From an uncultured Oscillospiraceae bacterium (lineage in GTDB: Bacteria > Bacillota > Clostridia > Oscillospirales > Oscillospiraceae), in NCBI GenBank assembly GCA_944386985.1, contig CALXDD010000032.1:1-32601 (forward strand): a stretch of 32,601 nucleotides of DNA. The letters run 5' to 3'. Positions 12,919 to 21,701 of this stretch are shown here, one piece after another (the first letter of the stretch is position 1; each line of letters begins with the position of its first letter). Position numbers and translations under genes: made by a program. The notes under the pieces are model-generated. The model worked only from the letters and a program-made list of their open reading frames with translations. It was not told the DNA's origin and made no database searches.

Positions 12919-13845
12919 TCAGCAGATAGGACCGGAGCCGTCCCCCGGAAAATACTTGCGGAACAGCTCCTCCAAACAGGCGGCGGCCTCGCCGCAGAAC
13001 GCATCATAGCTTTGCATCAGCCGGCGGCCCGGTTCAGTGACCACAGAGGCGCCGCCTGTCCGTCCGCCCCGGCTGCTGGCAATAACCTGTGCTCCCAGCT
13101 GCTCCTCTAAATTGGCGATAATCTTGCGGCCCTTGGAGTAGGAGATGCCCATGCGCCGGCAGGCGTCCAGAAGGGAGCCGGTCTCCTCTGTCAGGTGCAG
13201 CAGCTGGTGGGCGCCGGGTCCGTAAAACACCTGCTCCCGCATCAGCTGGAAACGGAAGGCAGGGCGCAGTGCCGCCAGGTCGTGGCGGTCCACCAGACGA
13301 AGATAGTCCTCCTCCGACCGCTGAATATTGGCGAGAATCCCCTCATCCTCCACCTCCACCAGCTGACGATGAAGCCCCGCAGAGCGGATGGCCCCGGCCA
13401 ATCCCTGCTGTCCGGTGTAGGAGAGAATGGTAGAAAACTGTTCGGCGCGCAGCAGCAGCGGATGGCCGCCCCGGCCCTGACAGCAGGGGACGCACACCTC
13501 GCCGTCAGCCTCTAAAAGGCGGCGGACTGTGGAGACGGAGAAGAGGGGCACGTCGGTATGAGCGATCAGCACCGCATCGCATTTATCCTGCAGATAGGCG
13601 AGACCGGCCTTTACTCCAGCCAGCATTTCCCCGCCTGCAGGGCTCCTCAGAAACTCCAAATTCATGTGGGGCACCAGCTTCTCCGCCCGGTCGTCGTCGC
13701 AGACCACCGCAATACGGCGGACCCCGGCCTGCTGAAAAACCATGACGATCCGCTTGAGTGCTGTGATGGTGCCGATCTTCTTTTCCGGTTCAAACCGCGC
13801 CTTTCCTTCCGTCTGTCCGGCGGCGATGATCAATGCAGCGGTCAT
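12919..13845 (-). CDS. MobA-like nucleotidyltransferase domain fused to ModE/LysR-type winged helix
   Basis: The protein has 308 aa. Residues 1-190 form a Rossmann NTP-transferase fold of the MobA/MocA type: LIIAAG at the N-terminus, a central HTDVPLFSVSTVRRLL (Asp of the metal/NTP site) and CQGRGGHPLLL. The family signature after LIIAAG (G-x-S-x-R-M-G-x-x-K) is replaced by QTEGKARFEPEKKIG, so activity may be lost or altered. Residues about 200-290 are a winged helix of the ModE/LysR type: LLDACRRMGISYSKGRKIIANLEEQLGAQVIASSRGGRTGGASVVTEPG can be recognised in pieces. I recall NTP-transferase/HTH fusions of this kind (DVU_1551-like) from anaerobe clusters. It has its own promoter and terminator and lies beside a type II importer locus. 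The likely role is a sensor/regulator or cofactor nucleotidyltransferase tied to that uptake. Confidence 0.82.
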   Translation of the reverse strand: MTAALIIAAGQTEGKARFEPEKKIGTITALKRIVMVFQQAGVRRIAVVCDDDRAEKLVPHMNLEFLRSPAGGEMLAGVKAGLAYLQDKCDAVLIAHTDVPLFSVSTVRRLLEADGEVCVPCCQGRGGHPLLLRAEQFSTILSYTGQQGLAGAIRSAGLHRQLVEVEDEGILANIQRSEEDYLRLVDRHDLAALRPAFRFQLMREQVFYGPGAHQLLHLTEETGSLLDACRRMGISYSKGRKIIANLEEQLGAQVIASSRGGRTGGASVVTEPGRRLMQSYDAFCGEAAACLEELFRKYFPGDGSGPIC

Positions 13846-13877
13846 ATCCTACCTCCAAGCCTCTCTCCGTTTTTTTT

Positions 13878-13886
13878 ATTATATCA
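13878..13886 (-). promoter_or_regulatory. Extended -10 promoter of the NTP-transferase/HTH gene
   Basis: On the minus strand TGATATAAT is an extended -10 with a consensus hexamer (TATAAT, 13878-13883). No good -35 lies at 17 nt. The start codon at 13845, preceded by GGAGGTAGG, follows after about 25 nt. Confidence 0.6.
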
Positions 13887-13934
13887 TGGACCGTCAACCT
13901 GGAAAGAAAAACATGAGAAAAACGCACCCAAAAG

Positions 13935-13960
13935 AAAAGGCACGCAAAAGCGTGCCTTTT
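13935..13960 (-). terminator. Terminator of the binding-protein gene
   Basis: A perfect 11-bp stem AAAAGGCACGC / GCGTGCCTTTT encloses an AAAA loop (TTTT on the minus strand). It is symmetric, so it can work in both directions, and lies 22 nt after the stop of the solute-binding protein gene. Confidence 0.85.
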
Positions 13961-13981
13961 CTCAGGTGCGAAGGAAAATCG

Positions 13982-15109
13982 TCAGGCTTGCAGCGTTCCG
14001 TTGTAGAGCTGCTGCAGCTGCTCATCGGTGAGATCCACATGGTAGAACAGCTGGAAGAACTCCTTGACCTCCTCATCCACATCATAATTGAGATACTCCG
14101 GATAGATGAGACCGGCAAGCCATCGCATTCCCACGATACGGTTGGGCCCCGGGGGACGGTCCACCCAGCTGAAGGGAGCGTTGGGGGTGCCGTACACTGC
14201 GCCGTTCTGCACCGCCTTCAGGGTGGCGTAGGTGGGATCGTTCAGGATCTTCTCCGCCGCCGCGCTGCCGGTCAGGTCGGCCTTGGGCTCACCGTTGACC
14301 ACGATCACATCGGGGTCCCAGGCCAACAGCTGCTCTGCGGAAATCTGCACCCGGGAGCCGTCGCCCAGTTCCAGATCCGCAACGTTGACGGCGTTCACCA
14401 AATCGATGATCTGACCGTGGGAGGAGCCGGCGGGAGCGGTTTCCAGGGAGTCCTCCCCGTTGCCGTAGTAGATGCGGACTTTCTCCTCCTCGGGGATGTT
14501 CAAACCGGAGATGGCGTTAAAGGTCTCCTCCGCATAAGCGGCCAGAGCTTCAGCCTGCTCCTCCACGCCGAAGAGATCCCCCATGAAGCAGTAGACCTCC
14601 GGCGCGTCCAGCAGATCGGAGCTCACCACCACCACCGGAATGCCCAGCTGCTCAGCCATGGTGTCCGCCTCGTCAATGGTGCCGTCGTTGATGGCGGCCA
14701 CATGGAAGGCGATGGTGGGATTGGCGGCGATCACCGCCTCGTAGTTGATGGCGTCTCCCTGTCCGAAATTGGGCAGGTCGTGGTACTGCTCCAGAATGAC
14801 GCTCTTTTCCAGGTCGTTGAGCTCATAGTTCCATCCCAGCAGCTTATCCGGCACCAGGGTGTACAGATAAATGGCCGAAACGGAGCCGGTGGAGAAGGCG
14901 GAGTCGATCTCCTCGGGCACCGTCATGGTGCGCCCCGCCATATCCGTGATCTCCCGCTGCCCGGAGCCGGTCTCCTCCTCGTCCGCGGCGGAATTCTCGC
15001 CGGTCCCGCCGTTTGGGGCGTTGTTCTGTGTCTGTCCGCAGCCGCTCAGCAGGCTGAGCGCCAAAAGAAGGGCCAGCACCAGAGCCAACAGCCGTTTCGT
15101 TTTCTGCAT
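13982..15109 (-). CDS. Type II ABC importer solute-binding lipoprotein
   Basis: This extracellular binding protein of the FecB/BtuF (Peripla_BP_2) class has 375 aa. The ATG at 15109 is chosen for GAGGTG 9 nt upstream; the longer frame has no ribosome-binding site. The signal peptide ends in lipobox LLSGC, Cys24, so the protein is lipid-anchored. An acidic low-complexity linker covers about 25-48, then two alpha/beta lobes joined by a long helix: ITDMAGRTMTVPEEI opens lobe 1 and WDPDVIVVNGEPKAD opens lobe 2. The C-terminal part (NRIVGMRWLAGLIYP ... EFFQLFYHVDLTDEQ) is the form I associate with oxyanion/siderophore binders such as MolA (HI1472). The gene is divergent from its permease and ATPase. 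The ligand is unproven. Confidence 0.93.
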   Translation of the reverse strand: MQKTKRLLALVLALLLALSLLSGCGQTQNNAPNGGTGENSAADEEETGSGQREITDMAGRTMTVPEEIDSAFSTGSVSAIYLYTLVPDKLLGWNYELNDLEKSVILEQYHDLPNFGQGDAINYEAVIAANPTIAFHVAAINDGTIDEADTMAEQLGIPVVVVSSDLLDAPEVYCFMGDLFGVEEQAEALAAYAEETFNAISGLNIPEEEKVRIYYGNGEDSLETAPAGSSHGQIIDLVNAVNVADLELGDGSRVQISAEQLLAWDPDVIVVNGEPKADLTGSAAAEKILNDPTYATLKAVQNGAVYGTPNAPFSWVDRPPGPNRIVGMRWLAGLIYPEYLNYDVDEEVKEFFQLFYHVDLTDEQLQQLYNGTLQA

Positions 15110-15178
15110 GCTATGCAACACCTCGCTTTTCTTTCCGTCTGTCTTCCTGTTTCTCGTCCTTCCAGCCAAAAGCTGAAA

Positions 15179-15207
15179 TTGACTTTTCTCTCACAATGTG
15201 AGATACT
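15179..15207 (+). promoter_or_regulatory. Promoter of the permease operon with palindromic operator in the spacer
   Basis: On the plus strand, TTGACT (15179-15184), a 17-nt spacer and GATACT (15202-15207, with extended TG) form the promoter of the permease-ATPase-methyltransferase-NTPase operon. A palindrome TCTCACA-A-TGTGAGA (15189-15203) fills the spacer and touches the -10. This is a classical place for a repressor to block RNA polymerase. It also lies about 80 nt upstream of the divergent binding-protein start and could control both directions. Confidence 0.7.
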
Positions 15208-15221
15208 GACGATAGATTTCC

Positions 15222-15238
15222 AAAAGCGAATAGCTTTT
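15222..15238. repeat. Short inverted repeat in the permease operon leader
   Basis: AAAAGC (15222-15227) and GCTTTT (15233-15238) flank a 5-nt spacer just downstream of the predicted transcription start. It could be a second operator or a small leader hairpin. With no long T-run it is not a convincing terminator. Confidence 0.4.
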
Positions 15239-15318
15239 AAAAAACCATCGGGTATGCTGTGAAGGTACCACAAATTTTTCCATTTGTCAAGTGGAGGAGA
15301 AAGGGAGGGCGTGACGGT

Positions 15319-16353
15319 ATGGAGCTGCGTGTGCGGGAGGCGGCAGCCCGGAGGCGGCGGTATTTCCGGCTGGTGCTGCTGGCACTGGCCCTGGTACTGC
15401 TGGGGTCGGCTCTGTTCTCTTTCTGGGTAGGCTACTACCCCCTGACTCCCGACCAGGTGGTAAAGGCGTTCCTCTCCCGTTTCGGATGGGAGGGAGAACT
15501 GCCCGATCAGGCGGTGACGATTTTCTGGAAGATCCGTCTGCCCCGGATTCTGTCGGCCCTCTTCATCGGTGCTTCTCTGTCGGTGGCGGGTGCCACCTAC
15601 CAGGGAATGTTCCGCAATCCTCTGGTGTCCCCGGACATCTTAGGGGTGTCCTCCGGGGCCAGCCTTGGGGCGGCTCTGGCTATTCTGCGTGGCTCCCCCA
15701 ACTGGCTTATCCAGGTGTCCGCCTTTGTGGGCGGGGTGGCCGCTGTGGCATTCTCCTATCTGGTGAGCCGCAAGTCCGTCCACAGCCAGATCCTCAGTCT
15801 GGTGCTCACCGGCTCCATGGTGATGGCGCTTTGCAATGCCGGGGTCACCATGATCAAGTATGTCTCCGACCCCAACGACGTACTGCAGCAAATCACCTTC
15901 TGGCTCATGGGCAGCCTCACCAAGGCGGACATGGACTCCTTCCGCTGGAGTGTGATCCCCATGGCGGTGGGGCTGGCGGTGATTCTGCTGCTGCGCTGGC
16001 GGCTGAACCTTCTCACTTTGGACGAGGAGGAGGCCCGAACGCTCGGGATCAATGTCCGGGGATACCGGATTCTCTTTATTGCCGCCTCCACCCTCCTCAG
16101 TGCCGCCGCCGTATGTCTCGGAGGCCTCATCGGCTGGGTGGGGCTGATGATCCCCCACATGGCCCGGGCTCTGGTGGGGGTGGACTACAGCCGGCTTATT
16201 CCGGCCAGCGCCATGCTGGGAGCGGCTTATCTGGTGCTGATGGACGACCTGGCCCGGTCCGTGCTGTCCATGGAGCTGCCTCTGGGGGTAGTCACCAGCG
16301 TGATGGGGGCCCCCTTCTTCATCTATCTCATCCTCAAACGAAAGGAGCGGTGA
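15319..16353 (+). CDS. BtuC/FecCD-family ABC importer permease
   Basis: This is the membrane subunit of a type II importer (vitamin B12, siderophores, haem or oxyanions). The protein has 344 aa. The start at ATG 15319 (MELRVREAAARRRRYF) has GGGAGG about 10 nt upstream. About ten hydrophobic segments are present. The first family block is RLPRILSALFIGASLSVAG, followed by TYQGMFRNPLVSPDILGVSSGASLG. The ATPase-coupling region is LGINVRGYRILFIAAS, then GLIGWVGLMIPHMARALVG near 280. The C-terminus ends in GAPFFIYLILKRKER, as usual. The ATPase gene starts 4 nt after the stop. The binding-protein gene is divergent. Substrate specificity cannot be read from the sequence. Confidence 0.95.
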   Translation: MELRVREAAARRRRYFRLVLLALALVLLGSALFSFWVGYYPLTPDQVVKAFLSRFGWEGELPDQAVTIFWKIRLPRILSALFIGASLSVAGATYQGMFRNPLVSPDILGVSSGASLGAALAILRGSPNWLIQVSAFVGGVAAVAFSYLVSRKSVHSQILSLVLTGSMVMALCNAGVTMIKYVSDPNDVLQQITFWLMGSLTKADMDSFRWSVIPMAVGLAVILLLRWRLNLLTLDEEEARTLGINVRGYRILFIAASTLLSAAAVCLGGLIGWVGLMIPHMARALVGVDYSRLIPASAMLGAAYLVLMDDLARSVLSMELPLGVVTSVMGAPFFIYLILKRKER

Positions 16354-16357
16354 CGCC

Positions 16358-17146
16358 ATGCTGCTGGAAGTGGAATCCGTGTGGGGCGGATACGGGAGCA
16401 AGGACGTGGTCCGGGGCGTCAGCTGCGGCGCGGAGGCGGGAGAGATTCTCTGCCTGGTGGGGCCCAACGGCTGCGGGAAGACCACCCTCTTCCGTCTGAT
16501 GCTGGGCATCCTGCCCATCCGGCAGGGGCACATCCGTATCGACGGGCGGGAGGTGAGCGGTCTCAGCCCCAAGGAGCTGTCCGGCCTTATCGCCTATATC
16601 CCCCAGTACCACAACCCAGTGTACGCCTACACCGCCCTGGACGTGGTGGTCATGGGCCGGGCAGCCCGTTTCTCCGCCTTTGACACCCCCCGGGAGGACG
16701 ACCGGGAGGCGGCCTTTGCCGCCATGGAGAAGCTGAACGTGCTCTCCCTGGCCAACGAGAAGTACACCGCCCTCAGCGGTGGGCAGCGGCAGATGGTGCT
16801 CATTGCCCGGGCCATCTGTCAGTCGGCCCGGATCTTTGTGCTGGACGAACCGGCGGCCAATTTAGACTACGCCAACCAGCAGCGGCTGATGGAGGCCCTG
16901 AGGGATCTGGCGAAAAAGGGCTACTGTGTGGTCATGTCCACCCACAGTCCGGAGCACCCGGCCTCCATCGGCAACAAAGCCCTGCTCATGCGGGAGGGGC
17001 AGGTGGCAGCCTTCGGCACCCCGGCCCAGGTGATCACTTCGGCCCACCTGGAGGCGGTCTACGGCATCCCCATCGACGTGGTCACCGTTCAGGACAGCCG
17101 TGGCGTCAAGCGGACCATCTGTCTGCCGGTGGGCGGAGGAAAATAG
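16358..17146 (+). CDS. Type II ABC importer ATPase
   Basis: This is the nucleotide-binding subunit of the importer, FepC/BtuD type. The protein has 262 aa. Walker A GPNGCGKTT is at 35-43; the Q-loop is in IAYIPQYHNPVYAYTALDVVVMGRAA, the signature is LSGGQRQM, Walker B IFVLDEPAANLD and the switch His is in VMSTHSPEH. The C-terminal stretch PIDVVTVQDSRGVKRTICLP is an added small domain often seen in this group. It begins 4 nt after the permease stop and precedes the methyltransferase gene by 17 nt. AAAGGAG upstream supports the start. Confidence 0.95.
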   Translation: MLLEVESVWGGYGSKDVVRGVSCGAEAGEILCLVGPNGCGKTTLFRLMLGILPIRQGHIRIDGREVSGLSPKELSGLIAYIPQYHNPVYAYTALDVVVMGRAARFSAFDTPREDDREAAFAAMEKLNVLSLANEKYTALSGGQRQMVLIARAICQSARIFVLDEPAANLDYANQQRLMEALRDLAKKGYCVVMSTHSPEHPASIGNKALLMREGQVAAFGTPAQVITSAHLEAVYGIPIDVVTVQDSRGVKRTICLPVGGGK

Positions 17147-17163
17147 AGAGGAGCGGCGGTTCT

Positions 17164-18090
17164 ATGGCGAGAAGAGAATATGATCTTACCAGCCTCCAAA
17201 ACCGACGGGACATGGCCCACTTCATTGCCTTGACAGAGGACCGGACTTCGGAGACCTCCCCCCAGTCACGGGCGCGGTGGGACCGGCGGGCGGAAGACTG
17301 GGAGCGCAAACGTCTCCGGGAGCCCGGTGACAACTGGCGGGTGGAACAGGCGGTGGCTTTCCTGCAAAACCGGGGGCTTCTGGAGCCGGGGATGGATGTG
17401 GCGGATATTGGCTGTGGGCCGGGGCGGTTCGCGGCGGCCTTTGCCCCCTTTGTTCGGCAGGTAACGGGGTTCGATCTCTCGGAGCGGATGGTGGCCTACG
17501 GCGTGGACCAGGCCCGGAGGGAAGGGGTGGACAACGTATTCTTCCGGGTCTGCGACTTTCAGTCCCTGGACGTAGCGGGTGAGGGGCTTGCCGGAGCCTT
17601 CGACCTGGTGTTCAGCTCCCTGACTCCCGCCGTCCGGAGCCTGGAGGGGCTTGAGAAAATGATGACCATGAGCCGGGCCTACTGCTGCCACATCACCCAT
17701 TTGTCCGGGGAGGAGCCTCTGCTCCGCCGGGCCATGGAGGAGGCCCTGGGCCGGTCTCCCCAGCCACGGTGGAACGGCCGGTGGTTCTACGCCCTCTTCA
17801 ACCTTCTCTTCCTCCTGGGCTACGACCCGGAGGTAAGCTACGACCGCCGCGTCCGGGAGCGGCGCCTCCCGGCAAGCCGGGATCAGGCAGCGCTTCTGCT
17901 GGAGCAGCTCCTTCCGCTGGCGGAGCGGGGGAAGAAGGAGACGGAGGCGCTGTACCGCTGGCTCCAGGAGAACGCCGAAGAGGACGGCACCGTCCTGCAG
18001 CACAGCGAGACCTGCTACGGCCGGGTGGTATGGGACGTGCGCCTGCGGACGGAGCGGCCGGGCTACGGCGCAGGAGCATGGGAGGAATGA
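17164..18090 (+). CDS. Class I SAM-dependent methyltransferase
   Basis: The protein has 308 aa; ATG at 17164 is preceded by GAGGAGCGGCGG. The N-terminal 70 residues are charged and helical, with SQSRARWDRRAEDWERKR-like sequence. The SAM motif I is VADIGCGPGRFAAAF (79-93), motif II is VTGFDLSERMVAYG, and the post-motif region is FDLVFSSLTPAVRSLEGLEKMMTMS. The C-terminal half (about 190-300) contains a hydrophobic WFYALFNLLFLLGYDPEV and is not typical of small-molecule methylases I know. It sits between the importer ATPase and the NTPase gene, so it may modify the imported ligand or a cofactor derived from it. The methyl acceptor is unknown. Confidence 0.85.
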   Translation: MARREYDLTSLQNRRDMAHFIALTEDRTSETSPQSRARWDRRAEDWERKRLREPGDNWRVEQAVAFLQNRGLLEPGMDVADIGCGPGRFAAAFAPFVRQVTGFDLSERMVAYGVDQARREGVDNVFFRVCDFQSLDVAGEGLAGAFDLVFSSLTPAVRSLEGLEKMMTMSRAYCCHITHLSGEEPLLRRAMEEALGRSPQPRWNGRWFYALFNLLFLLGYDPEVSYDRRVRERRLPASRDQAALLLEQLLPLAERGKKETEALYRWLQENAEEDGTVLQHSETCYGRVVWDVRLRTERPGYGAGAWEE

Positions 18091-18092
18091 GC

Positions 18093-18596
18093 ATGGCAGA
18101 GCATCTGTTTTTCACAGGAGAGAAGGGTGTTGGCAAAAGCACTCTGGTGGGAGGACTTCTGGCGTTACATCGGGGCAGCCTGGGGGGCTTTTTTACTGTA
18201 AAGGCCAGGGATGTCATTCCGGGAGAGACCACGGTTCACCTCCTCCGTGCGGATCTGCGGGAGATCCCCTGCCGGAAGAATCTGCTCTTTTGCTGCGGGA
18301 GACGGGGTCAATCCGCAGCGGAAAGATTTGACCGCCTGGGCTGCGCCGCTCTGGCGGTCCCTGTACCGGGTCTCTTTGTGATGGACGAGTTGGGTCCCCA
18401 CGAGGTGCAGGCGGAGGCCTTCTGCCGGGCGGTGCTGAACGTTCTGGACGGCCCTGTGCCGGTGCTGGGGGTACTGCAGCGTGCGGACTCCCCCCTCCTC
18501 CGGCAGGTAGCGAGCCACCCCCGGGTGCGGATGGTGGAGGTCACCAGAGAAAACCGGGACGGTCTGGCCCGCAGTCTTGCAGGGTGGTGCGGATAA
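18093..18596 (+). CDS. THEP1-like nucleoside-triphosphatase
   Basis: The protein has 167 aa. Of two nearby ATGs (18087, 18093) I take 18093 because GGAGGA (18081-18086) is 6 nt before it, while the other would have no spacing. P-loop GEKGVGKST is at 9-17. The Walker B-like motif FVMDELGPHEVQAEAF matches the DEIGxxE signature of the NTPase_1/THEP1 family (P-loop NTPases of unclear physiological role). The start follows the methyltransferase stop by 2 nt, so the genes are coupled. It is the last gene of the importer operon, which ends at the hairpin at 18624. A MobB-like GTPase was considered, but the DELG motif favours THEP1. Confidence 0.82.
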   Translation: MAEHLFFTGEKGVGKSTLVGGLLALHRGSLGGFFTVKARDVIPGETTVHLLRADLREIPCRKNLLFCCGRRGQSAAERFDRLGCAALAVPVPGLFVMDELGPHEVQAEAFCRAVLNVLDGPVPVLGVLQRADSPLLRQVASHPRVRMVEVTRENRDGLARSLAGWCG

Positions 18597-18623
18597 AAAG
18601 GGAACCACACAGAGAGGAAATAA

Positions 18624-18668
18624 GAGCCGGAGGGCATCCGGTTTTGATGGATGCCTTCCGGCTCTTTT
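18624..18668 (+). terminator. Terminator of the importer operon
   Basis: A 16-bp stem (GAGCCGGAGGGCATCC / GGATGCCTTCCGGCTC, one G-T pair, 9-nt loop) is followed by TTTTCTTC on the plus strand. It closes the operon that starts at the permease gene. Confidence 0.9.
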
Positions 18669-19754: not shown

Positions 19755-21701
19755 TCAGATATCCAATGCGGCGTGGTAGCCCCAATAGACGGCGTTGGTG
19801 ATGGTGGACACCTTGGCCGCGTCGCCGATGACCCGGACAAAGGGGGCGGCATCCCGAAGGGTCTCCACCATGTCGGTCCGGGAGCGCTGGCCCAGGGCAC
19901 AGATAACAGTGGTACCGGGAATCAGCACCTGCTTTCCCTCCTTGTCCTCACAGAGAACGCCGTTCGGCCGGACCTCCAGGCCCTTGCAGCCGGTGTGGAC
20001 GGTGACATACTTGTCGATCTCCTTGAGGAGCAGAGGACGGTGGCGGACGTTGGCGTCGGGGGCCAGCTCATCCCGCATTTCCACCAGATGGACCTTTTTG
20101 CCCTCCATACCAAGGTGAACGGCACACTCGCAGCCCGCGAGACCGCCGCCGAAGACCACCACGTCGTCGGTAACCTTGTCTTTCTCCATGTAGTAATTGT
20201 TGACGATCACCACATTGCCGCCCTTGATGCCGGGGATCGGCGGCACCAGCGGCGTGGAACCCACGGCGATGATGAGGGCGTCAGCCTTCTCACGCTCCGC
20301 GTACTCCGCTGTCACCTCCGTGTTCAGCCGGATTTCCACCCCGGCCTTCCGGGCCAGCAATTCATAGGTTCCTGAGAGCTGGTACATCTCGTACTTGAAG
20401 GGGATGGCCTGTTCGCTCTTGAGGATGCCGCCCAGAGCAGACTCCTTCTCGCAGAGGATCACCTGGTGTCCCCGGCGGGCGGCGGTGTAGGCAGCGTAGA
20501 GGCCGCCGGGGCCTCCGCCGGCCACCAGAACCTTCTTTTTCACCGGTGCGGGCTGGATCTCCACCCCGTCCAGCTCCCTGCCGATGAGGGGGTTCACCGT
20601 GCAGCGGCGGGTGGAGGTGGCCGCCCGCTCCGCCATACAGGTGAAGCACCGGAGGCACCGAACAATCTCCTCATCCCGGTTCTCCGTCACCTTTCGCGGC
20701 AGCTCCGGGTCCGCCAGCAGCGCCCGGGCCATATACACCACATCCGCCTTGCCGGAGGCAATGATCTCCTCCATCTGGGCCGGGTCATTGAGGCCGCCCA
20801 ATGTGGCCACAGGGACGGATACATGCTTTTTGATCTCCGCCGCCAGATACACGTTGCAGCCGTGAGGCTTGAACATGGAAGGGTGGGTATCCCCAAAGCC
20901 CCGCTGGTAGGTGCCGGCGGACACATGGAGCAGATCAATGCGGCTCTCCAGCTGCTGGGCGATGCGGACGCCCTCTAAGAGGTCATAGCCGCCGTCGAAG
21001 AGCTCGGAGCCGCTGATGCGCAGCTCGATGGGGAAACGGGAACCCACCGCCGCCCGGACACTGTCCAGCACCTCTTTGGCAAAGCGGCACCGGTTCTCCA
21101 GGGAGCCGCCGTACTCGTCGGTGCGCTTGTTGAAGTAGGGGGAGAGAAACTGATTGATGAGCCAGCCGTGACCGGCGTGGATCATCACCATTTCAAACCC
21201 CGCCCGCTTGGCGAGGCCCGCCACCCGCCCGTAAGCGGCCACGATGTCGGCGATCATCTCCTTCGTCAGCTCGCCCACCTCCACGCCGTCGGGACGGACG
21301 CAGGCGGAGGGCCCCCACTGACTGAGGCCGTGCTGGCGGTTCTTATCCGTCATATAGGTGCCGGAGTACATGCCCGAATGGCTCAGTTCCAGACTGGGCA
21401 TGGCCCCGTGGCGGCGGATGGCGTCGGCGGTATAGGTGGCGGCGGCCAGGGAGTTGAGGATGGAAGTATCAAGATGGTAAGCGTGGGAGCCGTCAGTCTG
21501 TGGGTGAACCATGCACTCGCTGACGGTGACGGCACCGGCGCCGCCTTTGGCCCGCAGCTCATAAAAAGCTGTGGACTTGGGGCCGATGCAGCCGTCATTG
21601 GTGATGTCGGTTCCGCCCATGGGGGCGGAGAACATGCGGTTGCGGAAGGTCACACCGGCTATGGTGATGGGCGTACACAGATGGGGATATTTACGTTCCA
21701 T
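19755..21701 (-). CDS. Old-yellow-enzyme / FAD-dependent ene-reductase (FadH/BaiCD-like)
   Basis: The protein has 648 aa. An FMN-binding TIM barrel covers about 1-370. The 4Fe-4S cluster Cys are C349, C352, C355 and C367 (CLRCFTC ... C), and an FAD/NAD(P)H domain starts with GGGPGG (396-400) and has a second GGGLAG loop near 500. The active-site His pair is in IHAGHGWLINQFLSP (H175, H178); the Tyr found next to it in 2,4-dienoyl-CoA reductase is Trp180 here. Enzymes of this layout reduce activated C=C bonds (2,4-dienoyl-CoA, enoates, bile-acid intermediates). No bai or fatty-acid genes are near, so the substrate is open. It is monocistronic, with an operator-like repeat at its promoter. Confidence 0.93.
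   Translation of the reverse strand: MERKYPHLCTPITIAGVTFRNRMFSAPMGGTDITNDGCIGPKSTAFYELRAKGGAGAVTVSECMVHPQTDGSHAYHLDTSILNSLAAATYTADAIRRHGAMPSLELSHSGMYSGTYMTDKNRQHGLSQWGPSACVRPDGVEVGELTKEMIADIVAAYGRVAGLAKRAGFEMVMIHAGHGWLINQFLSPYFNKRTDEYGGSLENRCRFAKEVLDSVRAAVGSRFPIELRISGSELFDGGYDLLEGVRIAQQLESRIDLLHVSAGTYQRGFGDTHPSMFKPHGCNVYLAAEIKKHVSVPVATLGGLNDPAQMEEIIASGKADVVYMARALLADPELPRKVTENRDEEIVRCLRCFTCMAERAATSTRRCTVNPLIGRELDGVEIQPAPVKKKVLVAGGGPGGLYAAYTAARRGHQVILCEKESALGGILKSEQAIPFKYEMYQLSGTYELLARKAGVEIRLNTEVTAEYAEREKADALIIAVGSTPLVPPIPGIKGGNVVIVNNYYMEKDKVTDDVVVFGGGLAGCECAVHLGMEGKKVHLVEMRDELAPDANVRHRPLLLKEIDKYVTVHTGCKGLEVRPNGVLCEDKEGKQVLIPGTTVICALGQRSRTDMVETLRDAAPFVRVIGDAAKVSTITNAVYWGYHAALDI

Follow-up and report, generated by a model that had tools for sequence, protein, structure and literature searches.

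What does a BtuCD-type importer carry when its genes lie beside those of a methyltransferase, a THEP1-like NTPase and a regulator-like fusion protein, in a genome with molybdenum (Mo) hydroxylases? The question is raised by six genes at positions 12919-18596 of the window, the whole 32,601-nt stretch analyzed here, which is one contig (C32) of a 2.99-Mb draft genome of an uncultured Oscillospiraceae bacterium with a completeness of 95.5%. Our tentative answer, which we place a little short of an even chance, is that the cluster is a BtuCD-type importer of the molybdenum cofactor (Moco), in the form of Mo-molybdopterin (Mo-MPT) or a close relative, with the fusion as its regulator; we infer the substrate from genomic context. 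Slightly more tentative still is the broader proposition that several anaerobic lineages may repeatedly have swapped molybdate uptake and Moco synthesis for import of the finished pterin cofactor, under a repressor derived from a dead Moco nucleotidyltransferase.

Molybdenum hydroxylases in genomes lacking the searched cofactor-synthesis genes

The window genome encodes two Mo hydroxylases, one of which scores 1306 bits against TIGR03311, the model for selenium-dependent XDH (cut-off 830), and it has YqeB over the cut-off with SelD-like and YqeC-like genes adjoining. The second hydroxylase has as its neighbor a MocA-like protein (136 bits, cut-off 186) whose AAGQSRRFGGDK loop is intact. The same genome gave no matches to MoaC, MoeA_N, ModA, or MoaE and none over the cut-off to MoaA (best E 1.8e-12), in a search of which TupA and WtpA were not part; it is thus a genome with Mo hydroxylases that lacks the searched synthesis genes. 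With neither a searched molybdopterin route nor a ModA match, molybdate has no evident use in this genome, and because no known pathway would lead from an imported oxyanion to the cofactor, import of a finished pterin cofactor fits better.

We made the same inventory in 150 genomes of the family to which the window genome belongs, most of them drafts. PF02738, the Mo hydroxylase family, occurs in 97 of the 150. MoaA was scored as present at E<1e-50 (79 genomes, 77 of them over the cut-off, the two extra being fragments in G074 and G126), and MoaC was scored as present with any match (80 genomes, including a partial match in G136, which was therefore counted as having synthesis). Both genes are absent from 32 of the 97 hydroxylase genomes, and all five of MoaA, MoaC, MoeA_N, ModA, and MoaE are absent from 24 of these 32, the window genome included; MoaE is a poor marker, with weak matches in only 29 of the 150 genomes. 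Among the 24 are G128, G125, and G132, assemblies of 1, 2, and 6 contigs, respectively, so bad assembly is unlikely as a general cause of the missing genes, although individual drafts may be affected by it. The hydroxylases keep their C-terminal GE motif, whose role is catalytic, in 11 of 11 aligned proteins (8 from genomes without synthesis and 3 from genomes with it), which suggests that the hydroxylases of synthesis-less genomes are probably real molybdoenzymes. G086, from the genus of the window genome, is a mirror image: MoaA, MoaC, MoeA, and MoaE are present, and PF02738, the methyltransferase, and THEP1 have no match.

ModA was found in 4 of the 32 hydroxylase genomes without synthesis, compared to 56 of the 65 with MoaA or MoaC (p=1.4e-12, with two matches of 20 and 22 bits in G008 and G139 dropped). 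THEP1 (E<=0.001) was found in 23 of the 32 but in 25 of the 65 (p=0.0025), and in 6 of the 53 genomes without a Mo hydroxylase. The sole phylogenetic correction of these counts was to take one genome per genus, which gave THEP1 fractions of 15/21 and 18/48 (p=0.017); among genomes with YqeB the fractions were 12/15 and 7/32 (p=0.00028, a post hoc comparison). In eight genus pairs that differ in synthesis state, THEP1 was present only in the synthesis-less member four times, only in the other member twice, and in both twice.

Molybdenum genes beside related importers

The cluster is strongly tied to molybdenum. The link to molybdenum metabolism proposed in the initial annotation is borne out by the XdhC-like, ModE-type, SelD/YqeB, and MoeA-like genes and the XDH-type subunits found in related loci. 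The gene order in G145 is methyltransferase-permease-ATPase-binding protein-THEP1-ModE-type helix-SelD-YedF-YqeB-cysteine desulfurase, and in G031 it is permease-ATPase-methyltransferase-XdhC-like-THEP1. At locus L039, a window-type binding protein is followed by the fusion and an XdhC-like gene, labeled through a sequence family whose L105 member was identified. THEP1 adjoins an XdhC-like gene in G125 and G063, is separated from one by a methyltransferase in G052, and adjoins a Mo hydroxylase in G122. Several homologues of the fusion adjoin a molybdopterin aldehyde oxidoreductase (AOR; 1502 bits, cut-off 1100), with an XdhC-like factor beside the same homologues that scores 318 bits, below its cut-off of 350. 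Finally, G132, a six-contig assembly that is 99% complete, has a one-strand run of THEP1, binding protein, permease, ATPase, XDH-type FAD, FeS, and Mo subunits, and a MocA-like protein, with gaps of <35 nt or overlaps except for one gap of 140 nt; the XDH and MocA models score below their cut-offs in this run.

FecCD importers with binding proteins were also seen in other company. In G087 (L128, 3666-9999), the importer lies beside two Oxidored_nitro proteins and a NifH homologue (Pfam), and a window-type methyltransferase adjoins the importer and nitrogenase-like genes. In G064 (L112, 1966-8105), the neighbors are nitrogenase-like proteins, assigned by sequence clustering, a MoeA-like gene, and the fusion. 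A DUF364 'heavy-metal chelation' gene, a CobW/HypB-like GTPase, and an odd ABC ATPase lie by the importer in G111 (L102, 405-2863) and G105 (L130, 11484-14349, and L131, 3-788), and in G105 a PBP_like regulator is also near.

Organization of the locus and its proteins

Profile scans of the window proteins confirmed all six open reading frames and assigned them the domains originally claimed. The features of the locus are as follows.

12919-13845, minus strand: fusion of a degenerate MobA/MocA-like NTP-transferase domain to a ModE-type winged helix, probable regulator (profiles; AAGxSxRMGxxK loop lost, AAGQTEGKARFEPEKK)
13878-13905, minus strand: promoter-like site of the fusion gene, TTTCCA-16-TATAAT (consensus match only)
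13935-13960, minus strand: stem-loop with T-run 3' of the binding-protein gene, separating it from the fusion (perfect inverted repeat)
13982-15109, minus strand: binding lipoprotein, Peripla_BP_2, with MolA HI1472 among its nearest solved relatives (profiles, homologues)
15179-15207, plus strand: promoter-like site of the permease operon, TTGACT-17-GATACT (promoter scan)
15222-15238, no strand: palindromic predicted operator of 17 bp, AAAAGCGAATAGCTTTT, with 1 mismatch to AAAAGCGAATCGCTTTT (inverted repeat and cross-genome match)
15262-15290, minus strand: weak promoter-like site of the binding-protein gene, TTGACA-17-TACCTT (by eye; not reported by the promoter scan)
15319-16353, plus strand: BtuC/FecCD-type permease (FecCD 300 bits; start set from homologues)
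16358-17146, plus strand: importer ATPase (profiles)
17164-18090, plus strand: class I S-adenosylmethionine methyltransferase (profiles; motif alignment)
18087-18596 (or from ATG 18093), plus strand: THEP1-like P-loop NTPase (NTPase_1; Walker A and B kept)
18622-18666, plus strand: terminator-like hairpin at the end of the operon (scan)

The initial annotation described a five-gene operon that included the binding lipoprotein. Four of these genes, for the permease, ATPase, methyltransferase, and THEP1, do form a plus-strand operon that ends at the hairpin, with 4 nt between permease and ATPase, 17 nt between ATPase and methyltransferase, and, at the last junction, an ATGA overlap if THEP1 starts at ATG 18087 or 2 nt if it starts at ATG 18093. 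The lipoprotein gene, however, is outside the operon and divergent from it; like the fusion gene it is on the minus strand, and the two are separately terminated. The fusion gene does adjoin the binding-protein gene, as described, with its own promoter-like site and the stem-loop with its T-run in between. Homologue N-termini favor ATG 15319 as the start of the permease and ATG 15109 as that of the lipoprotein. None of the flanking genes, which encode MurF-like/D-Ala ligase proteins, an EamA transporter, and an old yellow enzyme (OYE)-type flavoenzyme, has an evident connection to the cluster; the last of these proteins, OYE/BaiCD-like and encoded at 19755-21701, reaches ~400 bits with the models for BaiCD, mycofactocin OYE, and bilirubin reductase, in each case below the cut-off.

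The FecCD permease, ABC ATPase, and Peripla_BP_2 lipoprotein (80 bits) together constitute a type II ABC importer of the BtuCD/FecCD kind. The lipobox cysteine of the lipoprotein, Cys24, is invariant in 12 homologues. The expected relationship of this protein to MolA held up: HI_1472 (3psa) is found with a profile E of 5e-46 and, from the single sequence, with 9.5e-13, and MolA is the nearest relative of solved structure with a known oxyanion ligand. Three nearer PDB entries (4pag, 4hn9, and 4ovk) are labeled only as periplasmic or iron-complex binding proteins. Single-sequence structure prediction of the lipoprotein gave an unusable model with a mean predicted local distance difference test (pLDDT) score of 35, from which nothing was drawn. 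BtuC models gave 225 bits (cut-off 461) and 217 bits (cut-off 334), BtuF gave 21 bits (cut-off 234), and the lipoprotein was below the cut-offs of all haem and siderophore importer models that it matched (IsdE, FepB, SstD, and others). Rfam had no match at the gathering threshold in the window, and hence no cobalamin riboswitch was found there. All 14 aligned homologues of the methyltransferase retain its motif, D(I/V)GCGPG. The NTPase belongs to THEP1 (PF03266), with an NTPase_1 score of 68.6 bits (threshold 23.9) and the Walker motifs GEKGVGKST and MDELG; its score of 54 for the NCBIfam NTPase model PRK13695 is below the cut-off of 156.

A predicted operator and a probable regulator

The palindrome AAAAGCGAATAGCTTTT sits in the intergenic region between the lipoprotein and permease genes, directly after the promoter-like site of the permease operon. 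Its consensus, AAAAGCGAATCGCTTTT, recurs in the corresponding regions of three sister operons, those of G136 (0 mismatches), G051 (2), and G097 (3), and, with 2 mismatches, 5' of an operon in G042 that pairs a fusion homologue with a major facilitator superfamily (MFS) transporter. A search of 94 loci (1.47 Mb, a few of them overlapping) gave 10 sites with <=3 mismatches, 5 of them intergenic (the window and the four genomes just named) and 5 coding, compared to 1 site in a block-shuffled control; the chance expectation of a match in the window was 0.02. When 21 further intergenic regions were checked, the site in G042 was the sole one with <=3 mismatches. The G042 locus (L101, 9605-11971) is an apparent operon, and its genome carries MoaA and ModA without a PF02738 match.

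The fusion is a natural candidate for the protein that binds this palindrome, and its G042 homologue is 54-55% identical to it. Because G051 and G136 carry the operator but have only distant fusion homologues (39% and 36%, respectively), we infer this pairing rather than assert it.

The N-terminal domain of the fusion matches NTP_transf_3 with 79 bits (Pfam cut-off 27). The protein stays below the curated cut-offs of the related families: its winged helix scores 55 bits for TIGR00637 (cut-off 98.5) and profile scans found no MOP domain, which sets it apart from ModE regulators, and it falls short of MocA/MobA (TIGR03310, 61 versus a cut-off of 186), with the AAGxSxRMGxxK loop lost, and of the DVU_1551 family (NF045665, 102 versus 315). 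This nucleotide-binding loop is lost in the importer-linked fusions (window, L039, L100, L102, and L112) and the MFS-linked L101, and intact in the AOR-linked L104-L107 and in L109; it is also lost in L108, which adjoins XDH-type genes, and in L111, and the L103 and L110 sequences in this comparison were cut by gene calls. Loss of the loop fits sensing better than catalysis. The fusion is therefore probably a regulator built on a degenerate nucleotidyltransferase fold, in keeping with the sensor role first suggested for it. A structure prediction of the fusion and one relative (mean pLDDT 50) was unusable, and nothing was drawn from it. Contig C24 of the window genome also encodes a 115-aa ModE-type winged helix that stands alone (L178, 9482-9829).

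Conservation across the family

At E<=0.001, the fusion has matches in 78 of the 150 genomes, the methyltransferase in 56, and THEP1 in 54, many of them partial or distant; methyltransferases of the window type (E<1e-30) occur in 16. Genes in these GC-rich loci were called by codon usage, and the binding protein and ATPase of L116 (G136), which the caller missed, were recovered by tblastn (68% and 68% identity). A FecCD permease or binding protein lies within six genes of THEP1 in 21 of the 51 genomes whose THEP1 loci were read, the window genome among them. Co-occurrence of the gene families, named at the outset as the check on the cluster, is thus seen in other genomes, and both the proximity of importer and THEP1 and the conserved operator exceed chance. 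Importer, methyltransferase, and THEP1 occur together in G051 (L115), G136 (L116), G111 (L102), and G110 (L127); G097 (L100) has the importer, THEP1, and the fusion with no methyltransferase beside them; and in G145, G088, G054, G108, and G031 a second methyltransferase type, with weak BchM/CbiT-like matches, substitutes for the first.

In a tree of 27 permeases, whose loci were picked by matches to cluster genes and so form neither an unbiased FecCD sample nor one with an unbiased outgroup, the window type is a clade of four (G000, G097, G051, and G136; support 97/100). Most other THEP1-linked permeases, including that of G145, form a clade of 17 (support 94/87). Neither clade holds the permeases of G132 and G022, which sit on long branches. 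Across the order, the methyltransferase profile (E<=1e-15) picked out at least 3 genomes among 394, each a member of the same family; the count is a lower bound from a search that scored at most six candidates per genome. G003 has five matches to this profile (L142-L146). A scan of genome contigs gave a single relative.

What the importer may carry

In the scheme that we tentatively favor, the lipoprotein would capture a Moco species outside the cell, Mo-MPT or a compound near to it, for uptake by the BtuCD-like pair. MocA adds CMP to Mo-MPT, which makes Mo-MPT the likeliest form to reach the MocA-like protein. This cytidylyltransferase, encoded elsewhere in the genome by a Mo hydroxylase, would, together with the YqeB/YqeC/SelD selenium system, finish the cofactor and insert it into XDH-type enzymes. 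As the probable sensor of the cofactor, or of the cofactor in nucleotide form, the fusion would bind the palindrome at 15222-15238. If corrinoid salvage is a guide, THEP1 and the methyltransferase may serve to remodel or repair the cofactor after import, with nucleotide trimming, phosphorylation, or repair as guesses for their steps. Cofactors, B12 and haem among them, are known cargo of FecCD-type importers, and corrinoid auxotrophs take up the finished cofactor and remodel its nucleotide part.

Several observations weigh against Moco import. Twenty-five of the 65 genomes that keep MoaA or MoaC have THEP1 as well, and importer-THEP1 loci also occur where synthesis is intact (10 of 23 loci read), so the pair is no proof of auxotrophy; B12 importers likewise occur in B12 makers. 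THEP1 is absent from 9 of the 32 genomes without MoaA and MoaC and is not enriched among those without YqeB (11/17 versus 18/33). The window-type methyltransferase is not enriched where synthesis is missing (5/32 versus 10/65), and in G007 a MoeA...MoaA-MoaC run follows ~500 bp after it. G061 has the importer and THEP1 and no PF02738 match. The G132 importer is distant from that of the window in the permease tree, so its operon does not come from an orthologue, and we rated Moco import lower for this reason. Most of the 150 genomes are drafts, with kinship corrected only by the one-per-genus count.

The initial annotation proposed a possible importer of molybdate/tungstate or a chelate. Uptake of molybdate, tungstate, or a Mo or W chelate, which would make the cluster a MolABC-type system with accessory enzymes and a Mo-sensing fusion as regulator, remains the main rival because MolA is the closest relative with a known oxyanion ligand, but we now consider it unlikely. 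The profile match to MolA, the ModE-type regulators in the loci, the DUF364 and CobW-like genes by the importer in G111 and G105, the PBP_like regulator in G105, and the presence of the importer in genomes with Moco synthesis all agree with it. It is weakened by the window genome and the 23 other hydroxylase genomes in which all five searched genes are missing, where the oxyanion alone could not be converted to cofactor by known routes, and by the three structures that are nearer to the lipoprotein than MolA is. Less likely again is an importer of some other chelate or cofactor, an iron-siderophore, haem, corrinoid, or tetrapyrrole, that merely lies near molybdenum genes. The fold family, the BchM/CbiT-like matches of the second methyltransferase type, and the FecCD loci by nitrogenase-like genes (in G087 and, by clustering, in G064) would suit such a substrate, whereas the sub-threshold B12, haem, and siderophore scores of the binding protein, the lack of an Rfam match at the gathering threshold in the window, and the recurrence of Mo-gene neighbors across different genera argue against it.

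It is also very improbable that the importer serves a purine-like substrate of the Mo hydroxylase or a selenium compound. The G132 operon does unite a related importer with an XDH-type enzyme, and SelD and YqeB are neighbors in G145, but across loci the partners vary (XDH type, XdhC-like, selenium system, Moco operon) and molybdenum is the constant. Purines are not among the known substrates of FecCD importers. Selenium uptake was dropped as the main function, since genomes with YqeB have THEP1 no more often than those without (19/47 versus 29/50).

Comparison with known systems

MolBC-A of Haemophilus influenzae (HI1470-1472) shares with the window cluster a type II BtuCD-like importer, a homologous binding protein, and a molybdenum context. 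It is described as a molybdate importer of low affinity, and the excerpt of PMC4031551 used here mentions no methyltransferase, THEP1, or fusion regulator, unlike the window cluster, whose genome has neither a ModA match nor the searched Moco synthesis genes. BtuFCD and corrinoid salvage share the importer fold, but the window proteins miss the BtuF and BtuC cut-offs and no cobalamin riboswitch was found in the window. ModE has a winged helix for DNA binding in common with the fusion, which instead has an N-terminal MobA-like domain and no MOP domain that we found, and the ModE box differs from the operator at 15222-15238. MocA/MobA and DVU_1551 NTP transferases have the NTP_transf_3 fold in common with the fusion, and homologues occur in Mo-hydroxylase clusters; the window fusion differs in scoring below their cut-offs, in its lost nucleotide loop, and in being joined to a winged helix.

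Moco is generally regarded as made by each cell itself. The open-licence literature searched named neither a bacterial Moco importer nor a link between THEP1 and molybdenum. Dietary Moco transfer is reported for C. elegans in an excerpt of PMC9793310. If our proposal is true, Moco would be a shared vitamin in anaerobic communities, and the question of its source would become a binding and complementation experiment.

A further parallel to the window genome is found in the orphan molybdoprotein organisms. As described in an excerpt of PMC6147048 (Peng 2018), several hundred organisms have part of the Mo trait, in most cases with molybdoproteins encoded but the Moco pathway incomplete, as in the window genome, and most of them lack known Mo transporters; the candidate explanations given there, and left unsettled, are unsequenced or new synthesis parts, pseudogenes, and Mo-independent forms. 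Clusters of the window type are a candidate answer for these organisms, at least some of which a bacterial Moco importer, if real, would explain.

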